Shown piece after piece: positions 14,253-56,663 of a stretch of DNA of 64,000 nt. The first letter of the stretch is position 1; each line of letters starts with the position of its first letter. Source of the DNA: Pyrinomonadaceae bacterium (lineage in GTDB: Bacteria; Acidobacteriota; Blastocatellia; Pyrinomonadales; Pyrinomonadaceae); assembly GCA_014534425.1 (NCBI GenBank), contig JACVRN010000008.1, positions 1 to 64,000 on the forward strand, written 5' to 3'. The translations under genes were made by a program, and so were the position numbers. Below the pieces are notes generated by a model, which searched no databases, was not told the origin of the DNA, and saw nothing but the letters and a program-made list of their open reading frames with translations.

Positions 14253-14471
14253 TAGCGTCACCTCTCCCTGTCTTGCTCACCACAAGAATGTTCAAAGACA
14301 AGAAATTTAGAGAGTCAAACTGTTATGTATTCTCTGGTTTGATAATTACAGCTTGCCGAAGTTAAGGCGGGCGATAGAGCATGAGCCATGCCTTACGCTG
14401 GCAAACCTTATCATCCGACCGAAGTGAAGAGCAAGGCTATCAGCGTACAGTTATTAGTGACTCAGACTGTC

Positions 14472-14696
14472 TCATTTTCCCTCTATTCGGGGTCTCCCCG
14501 GTTGACCTTGCTCATAACTCTCGATTTCACTCCTGTACACAAGCGAACGACCGCCAACATTGACCGAACGGATACGCCCGCGCCTTACTAAATCCTGAAT
14601 TGCTGCTCTTGTTACTCCGCGTAAGCGCGCCGCCTCTGCCTGACTGATTAAATCCGACATATCGTTTGACTCCTGCTCTTCTTTTTTCTTTGCCAT
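14472..14696 (-). CDS. Excisionase-like HTH protein
   Basis: This is a small (74 residues) MerR/excisionase-type winged-helix protein: [20 protein letters not shown], then [20 protein letters not shown], the usual HTH-17 pattern with a beta-wing. Proteins like this act as recombination directionality factors or small repressors. The track starts at TTG 14717; I prefer ATG 14696, with AAGGA upstream. It sits about 1 kb from the right attachment site, where an excisionase would be useful, and is divergent from a strong sigma-70 promoter that it could control. Confidence 0.7.
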
Positions 14697-14710
14697 TACA
14701 AACAAATTCC

Positions 14711-14739
14711 TTGACAAGTAATAGTGATTGCATTAAAAT
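14711..14739 (+). promoter_or_regulatory. Sigma-70 promoter for the SWIM protein gene
   Basis: A perfect TTGACA at 14711-14716 and TAAAAT at 14734-14739 are separated by 17 bp and point towards the gene starting at 14791. The -35 box overlaps the upstream region of the excisionase-like gene, so that protein may regulate this promoter. Confidence 0.75.
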
Positions 14740-14790
14740 CCTATCATTCCGAAAGGGATAAATCAAGATAAAGTTCACAGGAGAGACAAA

Positions 14791-18075: not shown

Positions 18076-19089
18076 TTACGCTTTCGCTCTCTCTAACGAC
18101 TTAACCCTTTCCGCCTTTGCGGGCCAGCCGCCTTTGAGAAAGGTGCGTATGGCCGGGAAAACTATTTCGGGAAATTCGGCGAAGGCTTGATGAGCCGCCC
18201 CTTCAATGGTCAGGAGGCACGCGTTCGGCAACATCATAGCCCACTCGCGGCCCGCGCCGTATGGAGCGTTCCTGTCCTTCGTTCCGTGTATGGTCAAAAC
18301 AGGGATTGACACTTTGGCGACTTCAGCTTTCGAGATATTGAGGCGCTGAACGGACGTGAAGTGATACTGAAAATGTCTAGCCAGGTTGACGGGCCACTCG
18401 TTCGGCATGTCGCAGACTCCGCGCCCCAGCTTCTCAACGTTCGCAGGATTGCCCACAAGATTAAAGCGCATCAACTGCCACTGCTGCTGGCAGAACTCCT
18501 TCGGGCTGCTCTGGTCAAATCCGCTTTTACGCAACTCTTCAAGCTCTTTCAACTTCGCAGCGTCTATCACCGGCTGAGGGTCGTTCGCCGTCAGGCTCTT
18601 TGGATATTCGGTTCCGTACTTCAAAGGCACAGGCCCAAGCTGAATCAGGCGCTCAAGGTGCTGCGGGTATTTCATGGCGTAAAGAACCACGCCGAGTCCC
18701 ATGTAGGAATAGCCTACGAGGCTGAACTTTTGCAGGCGAAAGTGCTGGCGCACGCGCTCTATGTCTTCTATGTCTTCGTTAATCGTGAGCTTTGAGTTGT
18801 CCTGCACGGGCGATGAAAAGCCACGGTTGCGAGGGTCGAAGGAGATGATTGTGAATTCGTCGCTCAGTTGTTTGAAGTCGTCGAAAAGGAAGAGACGGAG
18901 CGGAACGACTACGACACGCTTGCCGCTCCCGAACTTTCTGTAATAGAGACGAAGCCCGTCTGGAATCGGCACGTAACCCTCTTCGAAGCTGCCGACGGAT
19001 TGCGGCTGTTCCTCCTGACCGCGAGCCGAATGCGGAAAGAGACCGTAAGCCAGCGCGACGAGCGACAGTATGATGACAACTCTCTTCAT
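18076..19089 (-). CDS. Exported alpha/beta hydrolase
   Basis: The 337-residue protein begins with a signal peptide (VVIILSLVALAYGLFPHSARG). The alpha/beta hydrolase fold shows the nucleophile elbow GYSYMG (Ser near 127), the strand IHGTKDRNAP carrying a likely acid Asp, and GAAHQAF with the catalytic His. An early DPRNRGFS matches the family's DxRGxGxS block. The substrate cannot be told; esterase, peptidase or lactonase activity is possible. It is convergent with the iron permease-like gene and divergent from the DUF983 gene. Confidence 0.85.
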   Translation of the reverse strand: MKRVVIILSLVALAYGLFPHSARGQEEQPQSVGSFEEGYVPIPDGLRLYYRKFGSGKRVVVVPLRLFLFDDFKQLSDEFTIISFDPRNRGFSSPVQDNSKLTINEDIEDIERVRQHFRLQKFSLVGYSYMGLGVVLYAMKYPQHLERLIQLGPVPLKYGTEYPKSLTANDPQPVIDAAKLKELEELRKSGFDQSSPKEFCQQQWQLMRFNLVGNPANVEKLGRGVCDMPNEWPVNLARHFQYHFTSVQRLNISKAEVAKVSIPVLTIHGTKDRNAPYGAGREWAMMLPNACLLTIEGAAHQAFAEFPEIVFPAIRTFLKGGWPAKAERVKSLERAKA

Positions 19090-27200: not shown

Positions 27201-29897
27201 TCAAGGAGCAGCGAAGCGTTTACGATATTCTTCCGAATAGATAAACCCGAATATCAGATGATGTATATCTCTCGGCGGTATCCCTGCACTCGCCCTCCCA
27301 TTCGTAAACACATCCACCCAATCACTCCATCCCAAAAGATTCGGGTCATTCAAACTCGGATCCCTCCGCAGCAATGAGAAATAGAGCAGCGTCACCTCTC
27401 CTCTTGTAAAATACTTGTCATACACTACCTTCTGCTCGACAAACGCTTTCACCGTCTGTCCCACTGAGAGTGTTCCACTGGCTCTCAGGTTAATTAACTC
27501 CTGACGGCCATACTGTGTCGGCTGTCCGGGCTGTGTCGTCGCCGTCGCCGGCAGTGTCACACCTGCTGCCTGCTCCAGCTTCGTGATTAACTGTGCTGCC
27601 TCAGACGACTGCAATGAATCTCCGAAGCGATTAATAAACCCGCTCTTATTGGTGAATTCCTGTAAGTACAGGTCTAGATTCTGTTGCTGCTCGGCGACCG
27701 GGACGTTAAATGTCTTCAGGAGAGCCATATCGGGGACGAATTCCAGGTAGAGAGGGAGTCTGCCGATGCCGACCTCGTAGAGGCGGTAGATGAGGAATGC
27801 CGTGTTGGTGGACTCAGGGCTGGTAAAGAAGCCGTGTGTGACGTGAGCGCGGTCACAGCTTGGAGGAGCGCCGAGGAAACCTTTCTCTGGGCCGCAAGTG
27901 TTCAGCACATTAAGCCAGTCGTTGAAGCCTTGCTGGTCAGGTTCGCGGTCGAGGAAATCTAGATAGAGTTGGCGCACGAAGAATGCATTATTCAGATATG
28001 GATTGTTGGCTCCGGTCGTAGGCGTCTGGTCATTGTCGATGATGGTGATGGTGGCCTGTGTGACTGCGCCGAGGCTTGCGCCCACCGGATTGGATAGCTG
28101 TATGGTGAAGAACTCGTTGTTCTCAACGTACCCGTCGTTGATGATGGGGATGTCTATGGTCTTTGTAGCTTCTCCGGCAGCGAACCTCAGAGTCCCGCCT
28201 ACGAATGTGTAGTCGCAACGCTGAGAGGCCAGTCCTGTGACCTGACTGCATTCGTTGCCGCCCGATTGATCCGAAGTCATGTACTGAACGGTCGCCGCAG
28301 CCGAAGTGTCTCCGGTGCGCGTCACGTTTATGCTGAGAGAAGCGAAGCCCTGCGGAGTGTTCACCGCGCCTTCGTTGATGCTGTAGCTTGAATTGCTCAA
28401 CTCCACAAGCTTCGGCTGGTTATTAACCATCTGCCCGCCGGAGAGCGTTCCAGTCGAAGCGTTGAAGTTACTGTCGCCGCCGTATTCGGCTGTGATGGTG
28501 TGCGTGCCGACTGTTAATGATGAAGTGGTGAAGGTGGCTACGCCGCTCGCGTTCAAGGCCACGGGCGAGCCTAGATTATTAGCGCCGTCTTTGAACTGCA
28601 CAGCGCCGGTAGGAGTTCCCGAAGCCGAAGTAACGGTCGCCGTAAAGGTCACGCTCTGCCCGAAGACCGAAGGGTTAGAGGATGAAGCGACTGTCGTGGT
28701 CGTGTTGGCTTTCACCACGCCCGCAGGATACTGAATCTTGAAGACGGCGCTGCTGCCTCTTGCCAGATAATAGAGGCTGCCGTCCGGGCCTACTTTCAAA
28801 TCCACAGGCTGGTTGATGCCGGATGCAAAGTCCGACGCCGTATTGTTCGTGGTGTTGAGCAGCTTAATCCAGCCGCTACACAAATCAGCAAAGAAGTAGT
28901 TGCCAACGTACGCGGCAGGGAATTGAACGAAGGAAGGATTATAAAAGGCTCCGCCAGCGATGGCGCAGCCTGTGATGGCGGCCCCCGTGTGACGGTAAGA
29001 GAAAATCGGCCCACGGAAACGCGGGTCGGTCGTGGGGCCTTCCGTGATGGGCCAACCGTAATTCGAGCCTACTATACCGTCGTTAATCTCTTCCCAAGTG
29101 TCCTGTCCTACGTCGTTGATGAAGAGGCGGCCCGTGCCGGGCTGGAAGGCGAACGTGAAAGGATTCCTCAACCCCAGCGCCCAGATGGCCCTGTTTTTTC
29201 CGGTCGCGGAGTTGAAGAAAGGATTGTCCGTGGGGATTGTCCCGTCCGAATTGATGCGTAGCACTTTCCCCAAGAGGTTCGTCAACGTCTGAGCGTTCGA
29301 CGGATTGGCATTCTCGCCCACGGCTATATAAAGCTTGCCGTCAGGCCCGAAGTGTATAGCGCCGCCGTTATGATTCGTGGCCGAGCTTAGATTGTCCAAC
29401 TCTAAAATCACAGTCTCGCTGCCTGCCACGGCCACGTCGCCGTTGGCTGTAAAACGGCTCACGCGATTGTGCATGGGTATAGCGCCCGTCGTGTAGTAAA
29501 CGTAGACGAAGCGGTTATTTGAAAAGTTAGGGTCGAAGGCGACTCCAAGAAGACCACGCTCGCCCGAAGGGTCTACGTTGACCGTCACAAACGGAGTCGA
29601 AAGCAGCACGCCGTTCTTGATGACGCGCAACTGCCCGTTCTGTTGACAGACGAACAAACGCCCGTCAGGAGCAAAGCTCATGGCGGTCGGGTTGGTTAAC
29701 CCGCTTGCGACCATCGTTTCAGTAAAGCCTGCGGGCAAAGTTGCGGCGTTGAGTGAAAAGAGAGTGCCCCAGAATAAAAGGAGCGCGGCGGAAAGAATGT
29801 GCCGTAAGGATGAGCGTATAAATTTACCAGGACTGTTTGTGACTGTGTGGTTCGATTGTCTAGAACTGTTTCTAACCGACTTGCTAATGCTCCCCAT
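27201..29897 (-). CDS. Secreted sugar dehydrogenase fused to Ig-like, Calx-beta and DUF4214 domains
   Basis: This is an 898-residue multidomain exported protein. After a signal segment (ILSAALLLFWGTLFSLNAA) comes a glucose/sorbosone dehydrogenase beta-propeller (about 55-385): PTAMSFAPDGRLFVCQQNG, GERGLLGVAFDPNF, NHNGGAIHFGPDGKLY. An Ig-like repeat (about 395-485) and a Calx-beta domain (about 495-625, DYTFVGGTLRFAAGEATKTI) follow. The end holds DUF4214-type segments (FFVRQLYLDFLDREPDQQGF). Members use PQQ to oxidise sugars in the periplasm or outside. The tail probably mediates surface attachment. AAGGAAG lies 5 nt before the ATG. Confidence 0.88.
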   Translation of the reverse strand: MGSISKSVRNSSRQSNHTVTNSPGKFIRSSLRHILSAALLLFWGTLFSLNAATLPAGFTETMVASGLTNPTAMSFAPDGRLFVCQQNGQLRVIKNGVLLSTPFVTVNVDPSGERGLLGVAFDPNFSNNRFVYVYYTTGAIPMHNRVSRFTANGDVAVAGSETVILELDNLSSATNHNGGAIHFGPDGKLYIAVGENANPSNAQTLTNLLGKVLRINSDGTIPTDNPFFNSATGKNRAIWALGLRNPFTFAFQPGTGRLFINDVGQDTWEEINDGIVGSNYGWPITEGPTTDPRFRGPIFSYRHTGAAITGCAIAGGAFYNPSFVQFPAAYVGNYFFADLCSGWIKLLNTTNNTASDFASGINQPVDLKVGPDGSLYYLARGSSAVFKIQYPAGVVKANTTTTVASSSNPSVFGQSVTFTATVTSASGTPTGAVQFKDGANNLGSPVALNASGVATFTTSSLTVGTHTITAEYGGDSNFNASTGTLSGGQMVNNQPKLVELSNSSYSINEGAVNTPQGFASLSINVTRTGDTSAAATVQYMTSDQSGGNECSQVTGLASQRCDYTFVGGTLRFAAGEATKTIDIPIINDGYVENNEFFTIQLSNPVGASLGAVTQATITIIDNDQTPTTGANNPYLNNAFFVRQLYLDFLDREPDQQGFNDWLNVLNTCGPEKGFLGAPPSCDRAHVTHGFFTSPESTNTAFLIYRLYEVGIGRLPLYLEFVPDMALLKTFNVPVAEQQQNLDLYLQEFTNKSGFINRFGDSLQSSEAAQLITKLEQAAGVTLPATATTQPGQPTQYGRQELINLRASGTLSVGQTVKAFVEQKVVYDKYFTRGEVTLLYFSLLRRDPSLNDPNLLGWSDWVDVFTNGRASAGIPPRDIHHLIFGFIYSEEYRKRFAAP

Positions 29898-30038: not shown

Positions 30039-33000
30039 CTAAAACTGTAGCTTCACTGCGAGTTGAACCGAGCGCGGGCCGCCTATCTGGTAAAGCGGGC
30101 TTAAGCCCCCGTTGACGCCTCCGGTGCCGAGGCTCTTGCCCAACATCTGAATTGACTGGCCGAAGAGGTTGCTGCCGAGGTCTGTGATGGGGTCTCCGAA
30201 ATTCGGATGGTTGAGCAGGTTGAAAAACTCCGCACGCAGTTGAAGATTTACTCTTTCGGCAAGATTAATCTGACGACGCAGAGCGAAATCTAGCTGTGAG
30301 AAGCCGAAGCCCCTGAGCGCATTTCGTCTTAAAGTCCCCTGACGGCCTGCGGGGATGATGAAAGCGTCTCTATTGATGCGCCTTCCGCCCGCCGACGCAG
30401 GGTCTTCGATGTAGAGCGGAGCGCCTTCGACCAGGTCGGGCCTGCGGGCTTCGACCAGGTCGCCAAGGATGAGGTCTGTTCTCAAAAACACGTTGAGCGG
30501 CGTGGCCGTGCGCGCCCTGAAGATGGCATCGACCGACCAGTTGCGAAGAAGCGCGCGTGATAGATGGCCGCCGCGCTTTAAAAGTAGCGGGACGTTATAC
30601 GAGAGCGCGGCTGTGAAAGAATGGCGCACGTCGAAGTTCGACGGCCCGCGCTCCTGCTCGGGCTTTATGTCTCTGAAAAAGTTTGTAGACGAATCATCCG
30701 AGTCGTCGTCAACCGAGCGCGCCCAGGTGTAGGAAGCCTGCAACTGCAAACCTTTTGTCATGCGGCGCTGCAACTGCGCCTGAAGCGCCTGGTAGTTTGA
30801 GGACGCGGTGTTGCTGACGACGCGCAGGACTGTAAACTTAGGATTGGGATTGAGGACAGCAGTTTCGCGCAGCAGGCGATGACCGACCGCGCCCACGTAA
30901 GAGATGGCGAGCGTTTGCTGCGAGCCTAAGGGCTGTTCGACGGTCGCGTTCCACTGCACTGTGTACGGAAGCTTGAGGCGCGGATCGAAGGCGTAGATGG
31001 TGTTGAAGGGAGGCTCAAGATTAAGCTCTGGCGGGCGTGCCGCGTCCGGCGGAAGCGGAAACAGAGTGCCTATCATCGTGCGGCTGCGCGCAAAGGGAAA
31101 GACGCTTCCGAAGCTTGCGCTCGCCTGGCTGTTGCCAAGGTCATAGAAGATGCCGGTGCCGCCGCGTATCACTGTGCCTGCGCTCTGTGACAACTGGTAC
31201 GCCATCCCGACTCGCGGCGCGAAGTTGTAGTAGGTAGTCTTCCAGAGCGCCTTGCCGCGCGGCGCTAAATCAATCTCAGCATTGTTGCCGCCCGTAGCGC
31301 TGATGATTGTGCCAAGGTCGTCGAAGTCTATGCCCTGAACTGTGAACGGAGGATTGCCGTTGCTCTCTGCCGGAGGAGGGTTTACTTCCCATCGCAGGCC
31401 GTAGGTTAAAGCGAGCTTGGGCGTGACCTGCCATGTGTCCTGCGCGAAGGCCGAGAAGTTTGTGAACAAGGGGTGGCGCGCTCCTGCTTCGGCGGAGATT
31501 TGAATTTGAAACGGTTGACCGTTGAGCGCTGCGCCCACGCCGTTGGTGTTGCCATTTCCCAGGATTACAGACTGCGAATATGTCAGTGGCCTGTAGGTCG
31601 GAGAGAGCCTGCGGTAATCTACGCCGAGCTTGATTTGATGCTGGCCTCGTATGACGGAGAGGGTGTCTATGAAATTCAACTGCGTCTGACTGTTGTCGGC
31701 TATCTTGCCGGAGCCGAAGTTCGAGTTCAGCCCGCCGCGCAGGATGAATTGAAAGCCTGAAGTCTCAGTGTCCGCAAACGGCGGGAAGAGAAGCGAGGCT
31801 GGCGGCACGACCGCCCCGCCGAAATCGTCCAGCGTGAGAAAGGTGCTCCCCGTCGCGCGGCTCCAATTAACGCGCAGGTCGTTGAAGACGGCTTGCGTGA
31901 TGCTTTGCGCGGTGCCTGCCGTGAAGGTTTGAGTCTTAAAGAAAGTGTGGTTGAGCGTGTTCAGGCTCTGAGCGTTGAAGCCAGGAAGACTTATGCCGCC
32001 GCGCTGCACAGTCTCGGACGGCGCGTTGTTATAGCGAGCGAAAACAGTCATGCGCTTACTGGCTGTAAAATCCACGCGTATGCTAGTGGCGTTCAAACTT
32101 GAAGGGTCGGAATAGCTGGCTGCAAATTCCGCGAAGCCGTTCTGGAAGTCCGCGCCGTTCGGCAAGGGAAAGGCCGAAAGAAGCGGCCTGAACTGAAGAG
32201 GGGCTTGCAAACGAGAGGCTGCGCTTGGAACTTCCGTGACGGCGAACTGCGGCTGCCTCAGGCGCAGCCCCTCGTAAGAAAAGAAGAAGAAGGCTCGGTC
32301 GCGCGCCAAGGGGCCGCCGACTACGCCGCCGAAATCATTCTGCCTGAGAGCGCCTTTGCCGAGGCCGCGACTGTTGGCAAAGAAGTCGTTGGCATCGAGC
32401 CTGTCGTTGCGTAAGTAGTCAAAGACGGTTCCGTGGAAGGCGTTCGTGCCGGAGCGCGTCACGATTGAGACCTGCGCGCCGGGCGTGCGCCCGAACTCAG
32501 GCGCGTAAGATGAAGTGAAGATGCGAAACTCTTCGAGCGCCTCGGTCGAGACGAGGTTGTTGGTGCCGCCCAATGTAGTCAGCGCAGGGAGCGCTCCCGT
32601 GGCGGCCTGCCCTGGCGCAAGGCTCGCGTTGACGCCCATGTTGGCGCTCACGCCGTCAATCATAAAATAGTTGGCGTTGGCTCGTTGACCGTTGACGCTG
32701 AACTGTCCCTGCTCGTTGAAGGTCGCTTTTGTCAAAACCGTTCCGGGCGCAAGCTCGAACAGAGATTGAAAGCCGCGCCCGTTGAGCGGCAGGTTTTCCA
32801 CCAACTGCCGGTTGACTACGGTTGCGACCGACAGCCCTTGCTGCGTCACGGAATCCTCGCCCTTGACGGTCACGGTCTCGCCTATCTCTCCGACCTTGAG
32901 TTTTATCTTGAGCGCCAGTTGGTCGCCCGTGTTGAGCGTCACGTTGCGAACTTCAAGTGTGCTGAAGCCCGTGCGCTGCGCCGTCACGTTATAGCTTCCG

Positions 33001-33275
33001 GGCGGCAGAAGCGGGACGACGTAATAGCCGGAGTCATCCGTGGTGGCGTGGCGCTCAAGCGCCGTGCTCAAGTTTAAGAGAGTGATGTTAACTGAAGGAA
33101 TAACTGCACCGGCCTCGTCCGTCACAGTCCCGCTCAGAGTTGCCATGTAAACTTGAGCGTAAGCTGTGCCGGTAATCGTGTCGAAGTGTGAGGAGCCTGC
33201 GGCGACAACCAGAGAGATTGCCGCCGCCAGGATTAAAAGATGCTTTCGGATAGCTCTGTGCTTGCGCGAGGCCAT
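30039..33275 (-). CDS. TonB-dependent receptor, Oar-like
   Basis: This is a 1078-residue outer-membrane protein of the large acidobacterial carboxypeptidase-regulatory-like/TonB type. A signal peptide (to about 40) precedes the CarboxypepD_reg-like domain (MATLSGTVTDEAGAVIPSVN, YYVVPLLPPGSYNV). A plug domain (about 130-260, with VENLPLNGRGFQSL) and a long beta-barrel follow, ending in an aromatic-terminated strand, VQLAVKLQF. It would import a large ligand, perhaps an oligosaccharide. The small barrel protein gene lies 28 bp upstream and is probably in the same transcript. Confidence 0.92.
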   Translation of the reverse strand: MASRKHRAIRKHLLILAAAISLVVAAGSSHFDTITGTAYAQVYMATLSGTVTDEAGAVIPSVNITLLNLSTALERHATTDDSGYYVVPLLPPGSYNVTAQRTGFSTLEVRNVTLNTGDQLALKIKLKVGEIGETVTVKGEDSVTQQGLSVATVVNRQLVENLPLNGRGFQSLFELAPGTVLTKATFNEQGQFSVNGQRANANYFMIDGVSANMGVNASLAPGQAATGALPALTTLGGTNNLVSTEALEEFRIFTSSYAPEFGRTPGAQVSIVTRSGTNAFHGTVFDYLRNDRLDANDFFANSRGLGKGALRQNDFGGVVGGPLARDRAFFFFSYEGLRLRQPQFAVTEVPSAASRLQAPLQFRPLLSAFPLPNGADFQNGFAEFAASYSDPSSLNATSIRVDFTASKRMTVFARYNNAPSETVQRGGISLPGFNAQSLNTLNHTFFKTQTFTAGTAQSITQAVFNDLRVNWSRATGSTFLTLDDFGGAVVPPASLLFPPFADTETSGFQFILRGGLNSNFGSGKIADNSQTQLNFIDTLSVIRGQHQIKLGVDYRRLSPTYRPLTYSQSVILGNGNTNGVGAALNGQPFQIQISAEAGARHPLFTNFSAFAQDTWQVTPKLALTYGLRWEVNPPPAESNGNPPFTVQGIDFDDLGTIISATGGNNAEIDLAPRGKALWKTTYYNFAPRVGMAYQLSQSAGTVIRGGTGIFYDLGNSQASASFGSVFPFARSRTMIGTLFPLPPDAARPPELNLEPPFNTIYAFDPRLKLPYTVQWNATVEQPLGSQQTLAISYVGAVGHRLLRETAVLNPNPKFTVLRVVSNTASSNYQALQAQLQRRMTKGLQLQASYTWARSVDDDSDDSSTNFFRDIKPEQERGPSNFDVRHSFTAALSYNVPLLLKRGGHLSRALLRNWSVDAIFRARTATPLNVFLRTDLILGDLVEARRPDLVEGAPLYIEDPASAGGRRINRDAFIIPAGRQGTLRRNALRGFGFSQLDFALRRQINLAERVNLQLRAEFFNLLNHPNFGDPITDLGSNLFGQSIQMLGKSLGTGGVNGGLSPLYQIGGPRSVQLAVKLQF

Positions 33276-34092: not shown

Positions 34093-37089
34093 CTACTTTT
34101 GATATGCGCCCTGAATAGTTATAGCCAGCCGCTCGGCAGTGATTAGCTGTCGCCAGAATGCGCGAGACTTGATGGCGGACGCGCTGCTGTTGCTGCCTCC
34201 TCCGGCAGAGATGGTGAACGCAGAGCGCACGGCTTCGTCATTCATGTAGCTCAACTGAAGCAGCCGCTCGGACGCCTGCCGGATGTCCGTCTCCTTCAAA
34301 GCTTCGGGCGCGGCATCGTCCACACCGCCGAAGACCGAGCGCAACTCTTGCCTGAGCGCAGAGACTTCGCGCTGGTAAGCGAGCGCGTGCTCACGCACCA
34401 TAGCAATCCATTTAGCGCGTGCCTCGGGCGCGAGTGCCTGAAGCTCTTCCGCCGAAAATCTTCCGGCGAGACGCTTGAGCGCGGAGGCGTGCAGGAGCGC
34501 CTGGCGCGAACGATTCATGACGCGGTTGCTGTAACGGTCTATCTCTTCTTCAACGGCTGCATCGCCCACCACGCGCCCACTAAAATATGCGCGCAGTTCC
34601 GCGTATGCCGGGATTCGATTATTCGGAACCACAACCTCGCGCTCTGTGACGTTCGGCTTTCTGGATTTGTCCTGCTGGTTGCGTACGGCTTCGCCGATTG
34701 TTGCGACCTCGACCCTGACGGCAGGGTTATTGATTATCGGAGAGAGGGCGCGAAGAATCTCTTCCTTGCGCCCCTCCGACTCGACGAGAGCCTCGACGCG
34801 TAGCTGTCCTCCTGCGGTTCGCGCCATGCTCACCTGTTCGCCGAGATTCGCTTTAATACGGTTGAGCAGGTAGGTGACTTCAATCTCAAGCTCAGGCGAC
34901 GCCACTGCGGACGAAGCTTCGGGCGCTGGAGAAGTGGAGTCCTTCAAGCCGTCCTGAGCCTTCGGCTTATCCGTCTCTTTTCTGTCGGAAGGCGAGTTGA
35001 GTTCTGCATCAGGGATGAAGAAAGAGCGGCCAACGTGGCTCTTCGGATATTTTTCGAAAAGCTCTTCTCCGAAGCGGTACTCGTGGCGCGACCCTTCGCG
35101 CTCTATAACAAGCTTCTGCCCGATTGCTCGCAGGTCGCTCTGTCTGAGCGTCAGCGACGCGGACACAAGCGATACAGAATCGCTTCTCTGCGCGCGGCTC
35201 ATTTCGATGACGTACGCGCCAGCCTCTTCTCTGACAGACAGTCCCGCGCTGTTTCCCACGAGCGCCGAAAAATCTTTCGCAGATGCTTCGAGCCGCCACA
35301 ACTCGCCCGTCTCAAGCAGAGCCTTTGCGACCAAAGACGGCGCGGCTCGCTCCTGCGGCTCGTCTCCGTGCTGGTAAACGGTGCTAGTGCCGTTCGTCCT
35401 TATCCATTCGCCCGCGATTAAGTTGCCCTGCTCGTCGTACACGCGCCGCGCCGTCAATTCTCTGGCCGCGCTCTGCCACACCTCTATGCGGTTTCTGGCA
35501 ATCAGGCGAGTCCCGTTATCTCCCCACTCTTCGAACCTTAGACGGCGATGAAAGACCATCTCCGCGTTACCAGAGCGCTTCTCTTCCGCCGCGATTGAGC
35601 TTTGAAGGAGCGACGCCGCGTTTGTCTCTGGCGCACGCATCTTCAGAAAGACGAGCGCGCCTATGAGTAGAAGAGCCAGCGCCGCAGTGACCAGCCCCGG
35701 CCACAGTCGCAAACGTGTGCCGACGAAGCGCCGCCAAGCATCCTTCAGAAATGCGGCGAAGCCCACGTGCGCGTCAGCCTCTTGAGTGTTCACAGGCCGA
35801 CGAGCTTCATCAACGGCTGCCTGTCCGGTTAGCTCTTCCGATAATTCTTCTGCGAGAGCCTCCGCTTTCATGAGCGGGTCGTGATAGGTCGTGTGAAGGG
35901 TCGGCCATTTGTTGTCGAACGAAAGGGTCAGTTCCAGAGAGCGCCCGTCGCTCAATTCCACACGCGTAGGCTGGCGGACTGCGCCTGCGGGCGGAGGCTC
36001 AACATTGAGGAAGAAGAGGCGCACGTCCTGTTCGCTGCACACCTCTACAAAGCCCACGCCCTCCGCAATGCTGATGTCAAGCGTCTGCTCCGTCAACTCC
36101 GAATTGATTCTCTGCGAGCCAAGGATGAAACCGTTGACCAGAAAATATAGCTCCTGCGGCCTGTGCTCGTAGACCTCTCTTGCGCGCCTGCGGTATTTAT
36201 TGAAATGCTCATCGCCGCCACGCTTGTCTCTGCCACGCGCGCCTTTCCCCTTCGGCGCAGAATCCTTTCCAATCATGTCCGGCGGGTGGCGCTCGTTAAG
36301 AGAAGAGAGGCCAAGCAGGGAATTGACAGTTTCAAGACAGGCGCGGCAACTCACAATATGCGCCAGTTGCTTGACGGATAGTTGAGCCGCGTCGTCGCGC
36401 TTGTAAATCCGCTCAAGCTCTGCGCGCTCCAAACAATCGCCCTCTCTTGAATTGAAAATCATGCGGCGCAACTCGCTCAAAAAGTCGCCGGTGCCCTGTA
36501 TGCTGCGCGCTTCTGTGATTTCAGGCGGAGCGCCGTTTATGAATCTCAGCCGCGTGGGGTCGTCCAGGTAGAAGCGCGCTTCGTTGCGCGCGATTCTCAG
36601 CCGCTCGTCCACGGCGCGTCGATTGGTTTTAACTACGCGAGCGATTTCCGAAGGATAGTAGCCGTGAAAGAAGCGAAGGATAAGGATGCTTGCGGCGCGT
36701 GCAGTCTCTTTGCGAACGCAACTGTAATGGCAGACGCGGCGCAAGTCTTCCTGCACCTGAAGCTGCTCGATTGAGCCTACAACGCGCAGCGCCAACTCAA
36801 TCGTGTCATATTCAAAGACGGATAGCTGCTGCAAGCGGCTGCGCGAAGCACGTCGTTCCTGCGAGAGGTGTAAATTTCGCAGCACGTTATACAAATATCC
36901 TTCTAGATTTGTGATGCTGTTTATGTCGGGGCGGGCGACCGTGAAGTGTATGAAAGCCTCTTGAACAATATCTTCGGCCTTCTCCTGGTCTTTTTCGGTC
37001 AAGCGTAGCGCCCAGGAGCGCAACTCTGCGTAGCGCTCTATAAAGATGTCTTCATGGCTTGTGGCGACCGGACGAGGTTTCAGCATCAT
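34093..37089 (-). CDS. ECF sigma factor fused to anti-sigma and membrane-spanning sensor
   Basis: This is a 998-residue fusion. Residues about 15-75 are sigma region 2 (ERYAELRSWALRL, EDIVQEAFIHF) and about 115-170 region 4 (ILILRFFHGYYPSEIARVV). A zinc-binding anti-sigma-like HxxxCxxC motif, HIVSCRAC, is near 244. A basic linker and a FecR-like beta region follow, then one membrane helix (about 463-484, LVTAALALLLIGALVFLKM) and a 500-residue extracytoplasmic part. Normally sigma and anti-sigma are separate proteins. The track starts at GTG 37155; ATG 37089 behind GGGAAG is preferred. Release by proteolysis would be expected, with a CHAT protease and a trypsin-like protease nearby; that link is inferred. 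Confidence 0.85.
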   Translation of the reverse strand: MMLKPRPVATSHEDIFIERYAELRSWALRLTEKDQEKAEDIVQEAFIHFTVARPDINSITNLEGYLYNVLRNLHLSQERRASRSRLQQLSVFEYDTIELALRVVGSIEQLQVQEDLRRVCHYSCVRKETARAASILILRFFHGYYPSEIARVVKTNRRAVDERLRIARNEARFYLDDPTRLRFINGAPPEITEARSIQGTGDFLSELRRMIFNSREGDCLERAELERIYKRDDAAQLSVKQLAHIVSCRACLETVNSLLGLSSLNERHPPDMIGKDSAPKGKGARGRDKRGGDEHFNKYRRRAREVYEHRPQELYFLVNGFILGSQRINSELTEQTLDISIAEGVGFVEVCSEQDVRLFFLNVEPPPAGAVRQPTRVELSDGRSLELTLSFDNKWPTLHTTYHDPLMKAEALAEELSEELTGQAAVDEARRPVNTQEADAHVGFAAFLKDAWRRFVGTRLRLWPGLVTAALALLLIGALVFLKMRAPETNAASLLQSSIAAEEKRSGNAEMVFHRRLRFEEWGDNGTRLIARNRIEVWQSAARELTARRVYDEQGNLIAGEWIRTNGTSTVYQHGDEPQERAAPSLVAKALLETGELWRLEASAKDFSALVGNSAGLSVREEAGAYVIEMSRAQRSDSVSLVSASLTLRQSDLRAIGQKLVIEREGSRHEYRFGEELFEKYPKSHVGRSFFIPDAELNSPSDRKETDKPKAQDGLKDSTSPAPEASSAVASPELEIEVTYLLNRIKANLGEQVSMARTAGGQLRVEALVESEGRKEEILRALSPIINNPAVRVEVATIGEAVRNQQDKSRKPNVTEREVVVPNNRIPAYAELRAYFSGRVVGDAAVEEEIDRYSNRVMNRSRQALLHASALKRLAGRFSAEELQALAPEARAKWIAMVREHALAYQREVSALRQELRSVFGGVDDAAPEALKETDIRQASERLLQLSYMNDEAVRSAFTISAGGGSNSSASAIKSRAFWRQLITAERLAITIQGAYQK

Positions 37090-37182
37090 TCGCGCTTCCC
37101 GGCTTAGACCATTTAGGTTCCTACAATATAAAGACGCACGGAATTTCTCAATCACACGCCAAAATTCTCAAATCTAGCGGCA

Positions 37183-40674: not shown

Positions 40675-40730
40675 AAAACTCGGAGTTACATAACGCCCGA
40701 TAATGACACAATAAATTGGGGCGGCGAATT

Positions 40731-41993
40731 TTGATAGACGAATCCTTAAAGAGCGAAAAGACAGTCCGCGAGTACCTTCTGGGCAGAGTTTCCGACGAAG
40801 CCACGCTCGAAGGGCTTGAGGAACTGTTGTTCACGGATGAAGAGTTCTGCTCCGAGGTAGAGCTTGTGGAAGACTCTCTCATAAATGATTACGTGCTGGG
40901 GCGCATGACGGAAGCGGACGCCGCGAGTTTTAGCGCGACGCTCGCGGACAATCCAGAGAGACGTTTCAAGCTGGAACTGACGGAGGCTTTGAGAGAGAAG
41001 GCTCTGGCAGAGAAGCCCGAAGTTCTGGAAGCCGGGCCGTCATTCTTCGCATCGCTGAAAGCCTTCTTCCGCCAGCCCAAGATGATAGCAACGTTCGCCG
41101 TCCTGCTCATCGCCGCGCTCGTTTCAGTCGTTTACCTGACCAGCAGAAGAAGCAGCAGCACAGGCGCGGACGATCTTGCGGAGTTGCGCCAGATTTATCA
41201 GAAGGAGCGGCCCACGGAGACGCGCATCGCGGAGTTCGGTTACGCGCCCGCAGGCGAGCTACGCGGCGAGCCGGAAGAGAGAGACAGGAGCCGCCTGCGC
41301 CGCATAGAGAACAGTCTGATAGAGGCCACGGAAAAGAGTCCCGGCGCACGGACGCATCACTCGCTAGGCGTCTTTTATCTCACGCAGCGCAAGTACACGG
41401 ACGCTATCAGGGAATTCGAGAGCGCGCTGAAATTTGACGCCAGCAGCGCGAAGATTCACAACGATCTGGGCGCGGCATATTTTGAACTGGCGAAGTCGGG
41501 CGGCAAAGAGAAGAGGCTGGAGAACCTTGGGCGTGCCCTGGAAGAGTTCACGAAGGCAACAGAGTTGGACGGCAATCTCCTTGAGGCGCTTTTTAACAGG
41601 TCGCTGGCGCTACAGGAGTTGCGATTGCCGCGAGAGGCGAAGGAATCGTGGGCGCTCTACTTGCAGAAGGATTCGTCTTCGCCGTGGGCCGAAGAGGCGC
41701 GCAGGCAGATGGCACGGCTCGAAAGCGAGCAGACGCTCTTCAAGACTCCCGAACAGGTCTTGGAAGATTTCCTGGCGGCTTACCGCAACCGTGACGACGC
41801 TCGCGCGCAGAAGATTCATAATGAGACGAAGGGCTTGTTAAAGGAAGCCGCAGTCCCGCTTCAACTCTCGAAGAGATACTTGCTGGCGAAGCGTCAGGGG
41901 GCAGAGCCGGAGGCCAGGGAGAGCCTGGACGCGCTCGCCTACATAGGCAGTTTCGAGCAGTCGCAATCGGACGAGTTTTTTTTTCTGAGTTAG
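40731..41993 (+). CDS. Membrane anti-sigma-like TPR protein, 5' part of a frameshifted gene
   Basis: The protein has 420 residues; the start is probably TTG 40731 (the track uses TTG 40716). The first 90 residues (SEKTVREYLLGRVSDEATLE, DSLINDYVLGRMTEAD) resemble the cytosolic domain of anti-sigma-like regulators. One membrane helix follows (about 118-138), then TPR repeats outside (THHSLGVFYLTQRKYTDAIR, KIHNDLGAAYFELAKSGG). The frame ends just after nine T residues at 41976-41984. The -1 frame is open across this point and continues into the CHAT gene. A slip would give one protein of about 1176 residues. Confidence 0.8.
   Translation: MIDESLKSEKTVREYLLGRVSDEATLEGLEELLFTDEEFCSEVELVEDSLINDYVLGRMTEADAASFSATLADNPERRFKLELTEALREKALAEKPEVLEAGPSFFASLKAFFRQPKMIATFAVLLIAALVSVVYLTSRRSSSTGADDLAELRQIYQKERPTETRIAEFGYAPAGELRGEPEERDRSRLRRIENSLIEATEKSPGARTHHSLGVFYLTQRKYTDAIREFESALKFDASSAKIHNDLGAAYFELAKSGGKEKRLENLGRALEEFTKATELDGNLLEALFNRSLALQELRLPREAKESWALYLQKDSSSPWAEEARRQMARLESEQTLFKTPEQVLEDFLAAYRNRDDARAQKIHNETKGLLKEAAVPLQLSKRYLLAKRQGAEPEARESLDALAYIGSFEQSQSDEFFFLS
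41976..41984 (+). other. T9 slippery run at the junction of the TPR and CHAT frames
   Basis: In the upstream frame the codons are GAG TTT TTT TTT CTG AGT TAG. One extra T, or a -1 slip, gives TCT GAG TTA GCC and an open frame to the end of the CHAT gene. Nine identical bases are enough for polymerase slippage in many bacteria; assembly error is the alternative. Confidence 0.6.
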
Positions 41994-42037: not shown

Positions 42038-44260
42038 TTGCAGGCCAGGGAAGTTCTTGAAAGCGGGCACCGCTTCGTCAAGCAGGACGATTACGCGAAG
42101 GCCATCTCGGAGTTTGAAAAAAGCCGTGACCTCTTCGCAAAGCTCGGCGACGGGGCCGAAGCAGGCTTGGCGGAGAATTGGGCGGTTCAATTCCTGCCGG
42201 ACGTGGCGAAGTTTGAAGAAGGTCGTCGTCGTCTAGCGGCCATCATCGAATCGGCTAGGACTCTTAAATTCAAAGTCCTGATTGCGCCCGCCTATTACTG
42301 GCTAGGCATCAGCGATTATCGTCAGAACAACCTTTCGCAGTCGAACAAGAATTTAAAGACTGCTTTGCGACTGGCCGAAGCCTCGCGCAATGTCATAGAG
42401 ACTCATCACGCGCAGGAAGCGTTGGCCCGTAACTATTCCAGACTTGGCGAGCTTGAGACGGCGCTCCTTTACGCAAGCGAGCAACTTCCCGACCGAGAGC
42501 TTTATTACCAGAACATTAATCAAACCCTGCGAGACCAGAGCACGCTCGCGGCCCTTTCGCTCAGGCTGAAATTCTTCTCGACCTCCCTGAGCTTCTCAAA
42601 AGAGGCGCTGAGCCGCATTCGGGAGATGTCGCCCGCGAGCATCCGGGTCAATCAGAATTTGCGAAACATGGTGAACGCAGCCGCCGCGAAAGGAGATTTC
42701 GAAGCCGCATTGAACTACGCTAACGAATCAAAACAGTTGACCGTAGGGCGCGAGCAGAGCGCAGAGAATGTGCAGACCGCCGCAGAAATCTACCTGCTGC
42801 TCGCGGACTTGAAGAGCCGTATGAAAGACTGCAACGCGGCCCTCACGGATTACGACAAAGCGCTTGAGCTTTACGCTCGGGTGCCGGAGCTTACGGTCGG
42901 CTCGTATCAGATTCACAAGGGCAGGCTCTTCTGCTTTCAGCAGCTTAATCGTCAGGAAGATTTCTCAGCAGAGCTTAGGACTGTCTTGAAACTGTCGGAA
43001 GAGTATCGCGCAACGATTCGTGAGGACAGCTTGCGTCAGACATTCTTCGCCAGCGAGCAGGATGTGTTTGACGTGGCGATTGACAATGCCATAAGCGCGC
43101 GGGATGCGCGCGGCGCTTTTGCCTTCGTGGAAGAGTCAAGGTCGCGCTCGCTGCTGGACTTTGTAGAATCGGACAGGCCGATTGCGGAACTCGAAAAGAC
43201 TTTCGGCGCGGTGGCCCGTCCCCTCTCGCTCGCGGAGATACAGGCGCGGCTGCCGGAGAAGTTGCAGCTAATCGAATACGCTGTGCTGCCCAACAGGCTG
43301 GCCGTATGGGTCGTCTCGAAGACCCGTTTTGATTTCATCGAAAAGGCTATCACGTCGGACGAGTTGGAAAAGAAGATAGTCGCTTATCAATCTGCGGTCG
43401 TCGGGAAAGCGCCTGCGCCGGAAGTCAGGCAACAGGCGAAAGAGCTTTACGAGATTCTGATTCCGCAGGGGCTGGACGCAGGAAAACAGATTTGCGTTGT
43501 TGCGAACAAGTCGCTTCATCAGCTTTCGTTCGCCTCGCTCGTCTCGCCGTCGGGAAAATACCTGCTGGAAGATTTCGTCTTGTCCTATTCGCCAAGCGCT
43601 TCCGTTCTGGTGGTAGCAACGGAGAACGCGCTCAAGCGTGAGCAGGCCAGGAACGAGAATCTTCTCAGCATTGGCAATCCCGATTTTGACCGCGAAGAGA
43701 ATCCGAATCTTGCGGACTTGCAGGCCGCAGAATCGGAAGCCAAGACGATTGCAGCAAGTTACCGTAACTCATTAGAACTCATCGGCACAGAAGCCACGAA
43801 GGAAAAGTTTCTGCTTAACTTTGGTAACTCGGAGGTGATTCACTTCGCGGGCCACTTCGTAGCCAACCGTCAATCGCCGGGTAATTCAAAGCTGCTCTTT
43901 GCGGGCGGCGACCTGCGCTCGTCCGAACTCGGCGGCTACAAATTGCCGCGCGCGAAGCTCGTAGTGCTGTCGGCCTGCGAGACTGCGTTCGAACGTTACG
44001 ACAAGAGCGAAGGCGCAATAGGCGTGGCTAGAACTTTCCTGGCGCTCGGCGCTCCACTGGTCGTCGCAAGCCAATGGAAAGTTGATTCGGAGCCGACTAG
44101 GGATTTGATGGTCGCCTTCCATCGCAACCGTAAAGAGAAAGGCTTGAGCACAGCCGAGAGCCTCAGGCTCGCGCAGCTTGAGGTCTTGAGCAGAGACAGA
44201 ACCGCCGCGCCCTTTTACTGGGCCGCGTTCTCGCTGATAGGCGGTTACAGCAACTACTGA
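42038..44260 (+). CDS. TPR-CHAT caspase-like protease, 3' part of a frameshifted gene
   Basis: The predicted 740 residues begin at a TTG with only a weak GAAGGG site, but the frame is open back to the T9 run. The N-terminal 350 residues are TPR repeats continuing the upstream gene (DDYAKAISEFEKSRDLFAKL). The C-terminal 300 residues form a CHAT domain, a clan CD protease related to caspases. The catalytic His is in IHFAGHF (His606) and Cys in LSACET (Cys647). CHAT proteases act in regulated proteolysis and in conflict systems such as the gRAMP-associated Csx29. It is encoded with an ECF sigma factor, so cleavage of a regulator is a plausible role. Confidence 0.88.
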   Translation: MQAREVLESGHRFVKQDDYAKAISEFEKSRDLFAKLGDGAEAGLAENWAVQFLPDVAKFEEGRRRLAAIIESARTLKFKVLIAPAYYWLGISDYRQNNLSQSNKNLKTALRLAEASRNVIETHHAQEALARNYSRLGELETALLYASEQLPDRELYYQNINQTLRDQSTLAALSLRLKFFSTSLSFSKEALSRIREMSPASIRVNQNLRNMVNAAAAKGDFEAALNYANESKQLTVGREQSAENVQTAAEIYLLLADLKSRMKDCNAALTDYDKALELYARVPELTVGSYQIHKGRLFCFQQLNRQEDFSAELRTVLKLSEEYRATIREDSLRQTFFASEQDVFDVAIDNAISARDARGAFAFVEESRSRSLLDFVESDRPIAELEKTFGAVARPLSLAEIQARLPEKLQLIEYAVLPNRLAVWVVSKTRFDFIEKAITSDELEKKIVAYQSAVVGKAPAPEVRQQAKELYEILIPQGLDAGKQICVVANKSLHQLSFASLVSPSGKYLLEDFVLSYSPSASVLVVATENALKREQARNENLLSIGNPDFDREENPNLADLQAAESEAKTIAASYRNSLELIGTEATKEKFLLNFGNSEVIHFAGHFVANRQSPGNSKLLFAGGDLRSSELGGYKLPRAKLVVLSACETAFERYDKSEGAIGVARTFLALGAPLVVASQWKVDSEPTRDLMVAFHRNRKEKGLSTAESLRLAQLEVLSRDRTAAPFYWAAFSLIGGYSNY

Positions 44261-53490: not shown

Positions 53491-53855
53491 TTTTTCTCTC
53501 CTTTAAGAGCGTGGCTTTGATGAAAGTTGCGGGTAAGTTGCAGTCTGCACGGGCGATGATAGAGTCGAAGTCAAAGCCGGACAGACGGAAAAGGCGATTG
53601 GCTGTAAAAGCCCGTCTCGGCAAGACGGGCCGGACAAAGATGCTGTTGAACGCGTGGCAGATTATCGCTGCCCGACCTCGTCTGTCAATCAAAATTCTTT
53701 CGCTCGCCGCACGATATTCCTCGACAATCCGGCATACGCTTGCTTACACTCCGTTACAGTTCTTAAGGGTTTTAAGGTTTTGGTCTTGATTCCATTCATT
53801 TGCCAGAGGCTTCTGGCTGGCCTTCAACCGTGTGAGAGTTCAAACAAGGCTTCTG
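53491..53855. other. Divergent intergenic region
   Basis: This separates the VioB-like gene from the TonB receptor gene. A perfect 8-bp hairpin GCCCGTCT/AGACGGGC (53610-53630) lies about 120 bp upstream of the VioB-like gene and is followed on the minus strand by TTTT, so it could be a leader attenuator. The short ORFs drawn here are not convincing. Confidence 0.35.
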
Positions 53856-56663
53856 ATGATGAATCGCCGTCGCTTCTTTCACATAGCAAGCTGCGTTCTG
53901 CTGCTATTACTGCTTCTGCTCAACCCCGTGCGAGGCGCGGCGCAATCAAGGGCTGTCATTAACGGCACCGTCACAGACCAGAACGGCGCGTTCATCCCAA
54001 ATGCGGAAGTCCGACTGCTGAGCCTGGACGGTGTACGGCTCTACGAGACGCGCACGGACTCCGGCGGCAAATATCAATTGAAGGAGTTGCCCACAGGCTC
54101 ATTTCAACTTACGGTGACGAGCGCAGGCTTTGCTGTCATCCCGCGCAGCATCACGCTTCGCGCATCTTCAATCGTCACGGAAGACTTCACGCTCGCGCCC
54201 GCCGTAGTCACAGGCACCATCACCGTCACAGCCGGGAAGGGAAGCGAGCGTGCGGCGGTCTACACGCCGGAGTCCATCACCGTCACAGACTCGCTGCAAA
54301 TAGAGGAGCGCAGACCGCGCTCTACGCTGCAAGCGATTGAAAGAGCGCCGAACCTGACAGGGATAAATTCCAACCCCGCGCTTGAAAGACCACGCTTGCG
54401 CGGGCTGGCTTCAAATCGTCTCTTAATCATCGTGGACGGCGAGCGGCTCAACAACGTGCGTAGCGACCCATTGTCCGGCGTAGCAGTAGGCGTGATTGAT
54501 GTCACACAGCTTGAATCGGCTGAGGTCACAAGCGGCGGCTCAAGCCTCTACGGCTCGGATGCCATAGGCGGCATCATCAATCTCATCACCAGAGCGCCCG
54601 TGCGCGCAGACGGCGCTTCATCTTTAAGCCTGCGCTTCGACGGCAATCTGTACGGCAACGGCCCTTTCCGCAGAGGCGCAGTCGGCTTGAGCTTTTCCGC
54701 GCGAAAGGTTGCGGCGCGCGTGAGCGGTGCGCTCTTTCGCGGAAGCAACTACAGCGCTGGCAATCGCAGTATCTCTCTGGAAGACGTGGTGAGCGCAGGG
54801 AGATTTTTGAACGAGATGGGCAACGCCACGGGTAACAACGTAGCGCGCACCTACGCCGTGTGGAGTTTGCCAGCCGGAGCGGAAATTCTTAACGGCCAGT
54901 CGCAGGGCTTCAATCATCAATTAGACCTCTGGCTCTTTCCAACGGTTAACGAGAGCGTTCGCTATAGACAGTTGAACAGCCAGCATAAAAAACTCGGCTT
55001 CCCGTTCATCGCGCCGCCCTTTGACCAACGCAATCAGTTCAACGGCTTTCGCCGCCTGGACAAGTACAGCGTCAGGTACGAGGGGCGCAAACCCGATTCG
55101 CGCCTGTCCAGGCTGGCGGGCGGCTTCTACTGGCAGAAGTATTCTTTCGACGACGGGACTATAACTTCTCCTATTCAGATTGGGAGCAGTTGGGATTTTG
55201 TAGCCTCGCCGCTACAGCCACAGCTTCTCGTTCCGTTTCTCACAGGACGGCCTTCTGTTTTCACTGCGGGGAATTTCACGGACGGCAAGAACTCCGTCAC
55301 CTCATATTCTTTCGACGCGCAGGCGAGCTTCACTCCGGCGCGCGGGCTGTTGATTACAACCGGCGCTGCTTACCTGAAGGACTCTTCAAAAGACGAGTTC
55401 ACGCGCACCGATTTTGTGCAGAACCGGACGACCGGCGGCAGAGCCAGCAACCCGGATTCCGACTACAGAAACCTCGGCTGGTTCAACCTCGTAGAGTATG
55501 AGCCTCGCGCCTGGCTGCGACTGGTAGGCGGACTGAGAGTTGATAACTGGAGAACCGAGGCGAAGGTGACGAGCGGTTTTCCCATAGGAGCCGAGTCCGC
55601 GATTCTTCAATCCTCGCTCACGAATCTGGCGGCCAATCCAGGCCCCATCAACCTTGAAGGAACCAATGGTCTGCTGGATTTAATAGCAGGCACGCGCGGC
55701 ATCAGCACTAGCAGAACCATCGTCACAGGCAACATCGGCGCGGTCTTGAGGCTTCCAGGCGGCTTCAATCCTTATCTCAGGTGGAGCAACAGCTATCGTG
55801 AGCCGGGAATTACGGAGCGATATATCCTGCGGGATTTCGGAGACCCGACTTTCAGCGTGCTGGTGATTCCGAACACGGCTTTGAAGCCTGAGCGCGGGCG
55901 GCTGTTTGAAGCGGGTCTCAAAGCTCAGCGCACGCGCTGGAGTGCGAGCCTTGGTTACTTCGACAACAGGCTGGAAGATTTCATACGCTCTGTCTTCGCA
56001 GACCCCATCTTCGTGGCCGCCAACCCTGGCGCGGGCCTTAATCCCATCTCGCCCTTCTTCCCCTTTCATGGCGTGCTTTACGTGCAGCGCACCAACACCG
56101 CGCGGGCGCGAATTCGCGGCTTCGAGATGGAATATGAAGTGAGGCTGCCGCTCTCCCGCCTCGGTCTCATCACACCCTTCGGGACGCTCGGAGCATTGAA
56201 GGGTTCTAACCTCACGCCCGACGAAGATACTCTGACCTTAATCAGACAGTTCTATAATAGAGATGACACGCCCGTCAGGCTCACGGGCACGGAGCAGGAC
56301 GCGCCGCTTTCAAACATCACGCCGCTTAGAGCGATTTTCGGTGCGCGCTTCGACAGCCGCAGCCGCAGATGGTTCGGAGAATACGAGGCGCGCTATCAGG
56401 CCAGAGTCACGCGCGCAGACCCGCTTGATTTGACTTCAACCATCTCAACGCAGTACGGCACGCTCGCCAGTCTCAGCCCCTTCACCCGTCAGAGCGTGCG
56501 ACTCGGTTACAACTACAACCGCGAAAGCTATCGCGCCACCTTCACCATCGGCCTCGAAAACCTGACCGACCGCTTCTACTTCGAGCATTTCCAGACAGCA
56601 CCCGCGCCCGGACGCTCCCTGCTCTTCGGCACGACAATAGAGCTATTCAACCTTCTACGCTGA
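53856..56663 (+). CDS. TonB-dependent receptor
   Basis: The protein has about 935 residues from ATG 53856 (the track starts at GTG 53832). A signal peptide (CVLLLLLLLNPVRGAAQ) precedes a carboxypeptidase-regulatory-like domain (VINGTVTDQNGAFIPNAEVR). A classical plug domain follows (PRLRGLASNRLLIIVDGERL, then YGSDAIGGIINLIT), then a barrel with FENLTDRF-like ends (IGLENLTDRFYFEHFQTAPA). The intact plug resembles siderophore/heme or vitamin receptors more than the Oar type at 30039. It lies between two ferritin-like genes, which points to iron or an iron-binding product; this is inferred. Confidence 0.92.
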   Translation: MMNRRRFFHIASCVLLLLLLLLNPVRGAAQSRAVINGTVTDQNGAFIPNAEVRLLSLDGVRLYETRTDSGGKYQLKELPTGSFQLTVTSAGFAVIPRSITLRASSIVTEDFTLAPAVVTGTITVTAGKGSERAAVYTPESITVTDSLQIEERRPRSTLQAIERAPNLTGINSNPALERPRLRGLASNRLLIIVDGERLNNVRSDPLSGVAVGVIDVTQLESAEVTSGGSSLYGSDAIGGIINLITRAPVRADGASSLSLRFDGNLYGNGPFRRGAVGLSFSARKVAARVSGALFRGSNYSAGNRSISLEDVVSAGRFLNEMGNATGNNVARTYAVWSLPAGAEILNGQSQGFNHQLDLWLFPTVNESVRYRQLNSQHKKLGFPFIAPPFDQRNQFNGFRRLDKYSVRYEGRKPDSRLSRLAGGFYWQKYSFDDGTITSPIQIGSSWDFVASPLQPQLLVPFLTGRPSVFTAGNFTDGKNSVTSYSFDAQASFTPARGLLITTGAAYLKDSSKDEFTRTDFVQNRTTGGRASNPDSDYRNLGWFNLVEYEPRAWLRLVGGLRVDNWRTEAKVTSGFPIGAESAILQSSLTNLAANPGPINLEGTNGLLDLIAGTRGISTSRTIVTGNIGAVLRLPGGFNPYLRWSNSYREPGITERYILRDFGDPTFSVLVIPNTALKPERGRLFEAGLKAQRTRWSASLGYFDNRLEDFIRSVFADPIFVAANPGAGLNPISPFFPFHGVLYVQRTNTARARIRGFEMEYEVRLPLSRLGLITPFGTLGALKGSNLTPDEDTLTLIRQFYNRDDTPVRLTGTEQDAPLSNITPLRAIFGARFDSRSRRWFGEYEARYQARVTRADPLDLTSTISTQYGTLASLSPFTRQSVRLGYNYNRESYRATFTIGLENLTDRFYFEHFQTAPAPGRSLLFGTTIELFNLLR

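Follow-up and report, generated by a model that had tools for sequence, protein, structure and literature searches.

A single-chain ECF sigma, zinc anti-sigma and periplasmic sensor protein of Acidobacteriota and its inferred Oar-class barrel partner

The principle of a sigma factor and its anti-sigma factor joined in one chain is already known. IutY of Pseudomonas putida (ECF243) is a cell-surface-signalling (CSS) sigma/anti-sigma hybrid, encoded beside a TonB-dependent receptor and released by Prc and RseP (PMC5411451), and in ECF48/52/53 of Actinobacteria sigma, zinc finger and transmembrane (TM) segment are fused (PMC8999054, PMC5826349). The N-terminal domains of Oar-class barrels have been described as distinct from the STN domain of signalling barrels (PMC6434023). 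An earlier note on the DNA analysed here, a 64-kb stretch of an acidobacterial genome (the window), had remarked that sigma and anti-sigma, here in one protein, are normally separate; the fusion proved to be real, but its one-chain form has the precedents just named. Acidobacteriota are abundant soil bacteria. Each of their genomes carries many Oar-class barrels (about 25 in this one, of 5.4 Mb), and we found no account of how these are regulated.

Architecture of the fused protein

The gene occupies 34093..37089 on the minus strand, as do all of its parts given below, and encodes in 998 aa an ECF sigma, a zinc anti-sigma (ZAS) segment, a TM helix and a periplasmic sensor; the plus strand over 34093-37089 is interrupted by stops and holds no open frame. 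A longer frame of 1020 residues is possible from an upstream GTG at 37155. Because the homologues begin, in the alignment, at MLxPW and a predicted promoter overlaps this GTG, the start, judged from sequence, lies most likely at or beside 37089.

Sigma regions 2 and 4 lie within residues 10-176 (36562..37062). Sigma-70 region 2 (residues 20-83) is above the Pfam cut-off (E 1.2e-7) and region 4 (residues 131-168) is a weak match (Pfam E 0.067), while models of the whole ECF sigma span residues 12-172, the match to TIGR02985 (E 9.8e-14) being under that model's own curated cut-off. Regions 2 and 4 as the only sigma regions are what defines an ECF sigma, a class that admits C-terminally extended variants. 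The ZAS segment follows at residues 205-262 (36304..36477), as delimited in an alignment of 28 fused homologues, and its C219-x24-H244-x3-C248-x2-C251 conforms to the ZAS motif C/H-x~25-H-x3-C-x2-C. Across the 28 homologues H244 and C251 are invariant (28/28 each), C248 is kept in 27/28, and position 219 is Cys in 26 and His in two. Pfam zf-HC2 gave no match in the 998-aa protein itself; it does match L042 and L043, two of the split relatives. One paralogue, L033:6705-9596, whose frame is intact, has Phe in place of C248, and a second barrel lies upstream of it at 11451-14747.

A conserved cytoplasmic domain of eight beta strands (residues 298-410, 35860..36198) precedes the membrane helix. 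It is absent from Pfam and was predicted confidently (pLDDT 87); the search of its fold against the PDB gave a best E of 0.17, which is not meaningful. Of its 14 occurrences in 396 genomes of the phylum, 12 are in fused frames 937-1036 aa long, one is in a separate anti-sigma and one in a short frame. A 129-aa frame that consists of the beta domain alone, with no sigma or sensor (L150:5678-6067, G218:C1), is likely a relic. Hydropathy indicates only one TM helix, at about residues 464-482 (35644..35700), or 486-504 in the numbering of the 1020-residue GTG frame.

The periplasmic part comprises about 500 residues. Foldseek with its AlphaFold2 model matched LolA proteins (8cgm, E 1.6e-6), and the predicted structure shows a LolA/RseB-like fold for residues 488-694 (35008..35628). 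Residues 728-808 (34666..34908) are weakly assigned to a BON-like alpha/beta domain, having an alpha-beta-beta-alpha-beta order and weak BON/YscD-BON matches in Pfam, and residues 826-996 (34102..34614) are modelled by AlphaFold2 as a C-terminal helical domain. When the sequences of the beta, BON-like and LolA-like domains were compared with PDB and Pfam, no family came above cut-off. The AlphaFold2 alignments drew on the window and its related loci and were shallow, with seven sequences for the full-length model, whose overall confidence is low (pTM 0.34) and whose local confidence is good in much of the periplasmic part. Open reading frame, Pfam and the 28-homologue alignment thus agree with the earlier note in placing an ECF sigma, an HxxxCxxC motif, a membrane helix and a 500-residue outer part in one 998-residue chain. 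The beta domain, the LolA-like fold and the gene of the barrel partner had been passed over.

Homologues, split relatives and the neighbouring barrel

A search for the same architecture in other Acidobacteriota, which the earlier note had proposed, returned 28 distinct fused genes from Blastocatellia and Acidobacteriaceae, representing at least four families; this count takes once a gene that occurs twice in the 29-row alignment and includes L045, which carries a frameshift in a MAG. Seven full-length homologues belong to relatives, and more were found in the class. The phylum search added copies from another family outside the class, one of which lies in a single-contig genome of 6.4 Mb, and the cultured Edaphobacter aggregans DSM 19364 and Paracidobacterium acidisoli also have fused homologues. 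Every full-length relative that the searches found belongs to Acidobacteriota. By codon position, the identities to the G036 homologue are 0.64/0.72/0.41, and since this coding pattern holds in every 100-codon block, the sigma/anti-sigma junction included, the whole frame is, by this sequence measure, under protein-level selection.

Split relatives are of two kinds. Eight sensor-only relatives (L041, L042, L043, L112, L122, L147, L148, L149) have the sensor part behind a TM, in most cases with a separate small sigma gene directly before it and a barrel of the Oar class after it; their sigma is a different ECF, which the profile of the fused sigma misses or barely matches. At L110 and L111, ZAS, beta domain and TM form a gene of 458 aa, followed by a sigma of 195 aa and a CHAT-TPR gene. 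This sigma is related to the fused one, and the gene order is reversed, with the anti-sigma part first. As separate genes of the ZAS-beta-domain-TM segment adjoin separate sigma genes at these two loci, we take that segment to be the anti-sigma part. The two loci (L110:5739-10727 and L111:4760-9720) represent a sigma module akin to the fused one and rewired to a CHAT-TPR partner, a protein of protease fold. The split homologues were mostly rejected as a direct unfused ancestor, given their different ECF sigma; the exception is L110/L111, with their reversed order.

The earlier note had held that homologues with separate sigma and anti-sigma genes would point to an annotation or assembly fusion. 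Such homologues exist, and they are what speaks for this explanation, but with their different sigma or reversed order they do not overturn the fusion. The fused frame is found 28 separate times, in single-contig and cultured-strain genomes among others, and the coding signal runs across the sigma/anti-sigma junction. We therefore regard an artefactual joining as refuted by the 28 homologues and give it hardly any chance.

Fused and split sequences are intermingled in a tree built from the sensor part, which forces at least two changes between the fused and split states. Because the tree forces these changes and the split systems keep the barrel, sensor and barrel seem, from these sequences, to travel together across differing sigma modules. 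This is our chief ground for supposing that the sensor reads the barrel.

The barrel of the locus under study, its inferred partner or receptor, is a TonB-dependent protein at 30039..33275 (minus). It has CarboxypepD_reg (PF13620, E 6.5e-22) and OMP_b-brl_4 (PF25183, E 1.6e-158), with Plug matched slightly under its cut-off (22.1 vs 23.9 bits), and thus has the CarboxypepD_reg N-terminal domain, plug and large barrel of the Oar class; Pfam found no STN signalling domain in it, CarboxypepD_reg being the N-terminal domain instead. An Oar-class barrel gene follows the fused gene on the same strand at 28/28 loci. The two lie within 180 bp or overlap at 25/28, and at the other three, namely in the window, G036 and G009, one gene for a small outer-membrane beta-barrel protein (PF13505; 33304..34023, minus, in the window) stands between them. 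Since the window's own genome has just about 25 such barrels, chance adjacency amounts to roughly 0.5% per gene.

Downstream of the barrel, 27201..29897 (minus) encodes a secreted GSDH/Big/Calx-beta/DUF4214 protein, with glucose/sorbosone dehydrogenase-like, Ig-like, Calx-beta and DUF4214 parts, which is a possible operon member or cargo. Elsewhere in the window, a second TonB-dependent barrel with CarboxypepD_reg lies at 53832-56663 (+), with no sigma neighbour seen, and a CHAT-TPR protein is encoded at 42038-44260 (+), 5 kb from the fused gene and on the opposite strand, with a TPR gene upstream of it at 40716-41993. A search with Rfam returned only a tRNA.

Promoter and candidate target genes

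GTGGGTT-N14-GCGTCTWA is common to the upstream regions of six relatives, with a spacer of exactly constant length. Each of the six whole genomes contains a single exact match, which lies at the fused gene, and a reversed control gave zero; the same six sites had defined the pattern, so that the informative part of this result is its absence elsewhere in the six genomes. As a blind test, we scanned the window on both strands with a weight matrix built from the six sites. The top-scoring hit (14.9, against 11.6 for the runner-up) was 37158-37129, immediately before the fused gene, where CGTGTGAT-...-GCGTCTTTA (37129..37158, minus) is a probable ECF-type autoregulatory promoter. The motif is clear in near relatives only, the copies of Terriglobia and several of Blastocatellia being at background.

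Seven sites with one mismatch were present in the searched genomes, four of them upstream of genes for secreted-type DUF4214 proteins: three orthologous genes of 515 to 538 aa (G146, G034, G147) and one in G149, the frame of which is broken, probably by an assembly gap. With two mismatches the motif did not rise above the reversed-pattern control. Only 4/35 scanned upstream regions of DUF4214 genes scored; a general DUF4214 regulon was rejected because the others are at background, and any regulon would accordingly be small. In the window and in G036 and G034, DUF4214 proteins are also encoded after the barrel. They number 10-59 matches in seven genomes of the window's family, while four other genomes with the fused gene lack them, and they therefore cannot be the sole cargo or signal. 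The best reading of these sequence patterns is that the fused sigma regulates its own operon and, in relatives, one or two DUF4214 secreted-protein genes.

A proposed circuit and its relation to known systems

We think it probable that the fused protein is a one-piece CSS regulator that serves an outer-membrane barrel of the Oar class. In the resting state, the sigma domain would be held at the inner membrane by the ZAS segment of the same chain; the domains and conserved ligands are observed, and from them inhibition in cis may be inferred. The LolA-like, BON-like and helical periplasmic domains would monitor the barrel or the material it handles, as suggested by the invariant synteny and by the swapping of the sensor between sigma modules. 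On a signal, the chain would become open to cleavage, first in the periplasm and then within the membrane, two steps proposed by analogy with IutY and its Prc and RseP, and the freed sigma would transcribe its own operon from 37158-37129 and presumably, in relatives, the one or two DUF4214 genes. Proteolysis is, after IutY, probably the likeliest route of release. The two protease genes that the earlier note had placed within 12 kb were not borne out, since Pfam scans of the larger nearby ORFs gave no S1P/S2P-type protease and turned up only the CHAT-TPR protein and, further off, an alpha/beta hydrolase (18076-19089). RseP-type M50 and S41 proteases are encoded elsewhere in the genome. Counting against a CSS regulator are the barrel without the STN present in known CSS receptors, the promoter motif, clear in near relatives only, the weak match of region 4, the L033 copy without zinc ligand C248 and the low pTM of the full-length model.

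A bolder version, in which the Oar-class barrel is a genuine signal transducer and the LolA-like domain senses cargo load (here DUF4214), matching synthesis of barrel and cargo as a secretion-status sensor, we consider doubtful. Oar-class barrels have hitherto been linked to protein export, not to signalling.

Three other explanations bear on the sensor, the release step and the sigma domain. It is unlikely, in our estimate, that the protein is an envelope-stress or lipid sensor, in which stray lipid or lipoprotein would be the ligand of the LolA-like domain, and the Oar barrel would be a regulated target alone and not the source of the signal. The LolA-superfamily fold is consistent with such a role, as is the LolA-like N-terminal domain of RseB/MucB, which binds lipid A and gates anti-sigma cleavage, but the sensor keeps its Oar barrel when the sigma module differs, and the motif's apparent targets, confined to its own operon and one or two genes, do not resemble a global stress regulon. 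Quite unlikely is a switch without proteolysis, by which a conformational or zinc/redox change would act on a tethered sigma that works at the membrane or remains in the full chain. The zinc ligands are nearly invariant, and conformational switching is known in other C-terminally extended ECFs; yet TM-anchored precedents are thought to need cleavage, IutY does need it, and one intact copy dispenses with a zinc ligand. We regard as very improbable that the sigma is degenerate and initiates no transcription, the protein acting as a membrane decoy or as anti-sigma for another ECF. The weak region 4 match would fit, but different loci conserve the sigma domain well (profile E 1e-38 to 1e-87), every one of the 28 copies except the frame-shifted one from a MAG has it intact, and the gene is immediately preceded by a probable ECF-type promoter.

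If the CSS regulator reading holds, one Oar-class barrel would have a sigma switch of its own, complete in itself and with a promoter open to test, which suggests that barrels of this class can signal without an STN domain. The circuit could be tested in a cultured relative such as E. aggregans or P. acidisoli, since its regulator, promoter and barrel appear to lie in a single operon.

Among the known systems, IutY resembles the fused protein in having, in one chain, a cytoplasmic ECF sigma, one TM and a periplasmic anti-sigma/sensor part, with a TonB-dependent barrel adjoining; release of sigma by proteolysis, demonstrated for IutY, would be a further likeness. In IutY, however, the anti-sigma part is of the CSS (FecR) type, and the barrel is a siderophore receptor with STN. 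The fused protein, from another phylum, has a ZAS, a LolA-like sensor and, in the cytoplasm, an additional beta domain; the barrel beside it is of the Oar class and lacks STN. Pfam gave no match to FecR or DUF4880 in the 998 aa of the fused protein at E up to 10. SCO4117 of Streptomyces (ECF52/ECF48/ECF53) likewise combines ECF sigma, zinc-finger anti-sigma, TM and a long outer part; it is actinobacterial, its outer part is proline-rich and carbohydrate-binding, and it has no outer-membrane barrel partner, whereas here a LolA/BON-like sensor is paired with an Oar barrel and Pfam detected neither the proline-rich linker nor the carbohydrate-binding module of ECF52. In FecI-FecR-FecA and FoxI-FoxR-FoxA, sigma, inner-membrane anti-sigma and outer-membrane TonB-dependent barrel also form one module, but as three separate proteins, with a FecR fold and an STN that were not found at the fused locus. 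RpoE-RseA-RseB and AlgU-MucA-MucB share the tie between a LolA-like periplasmic domain and control of anti-sigma cleavage; RseB and MucB are separate soluble proteins, while here the LolA-like domain shares a chain with the sigma. The Oar protein of Myxococcus xanthus has the same CarboxypepD_reg N-terminal extension and plug, and is known for secretion of the protein PopC, not for sigma-factor signalling (PMC6434023). Our literature search, which covered mostly open-access papers, returned no description of an Oar-class partner for such a sigma. As far as our searches reach, the lineage, the Oar-class partner without STN, the built-in LolA-like sensor and the unnamed beta domain are new, and with them a further phylum, in which sensor and partner differ, joins those known to have single-chain sigma/anti-sigma proteins.
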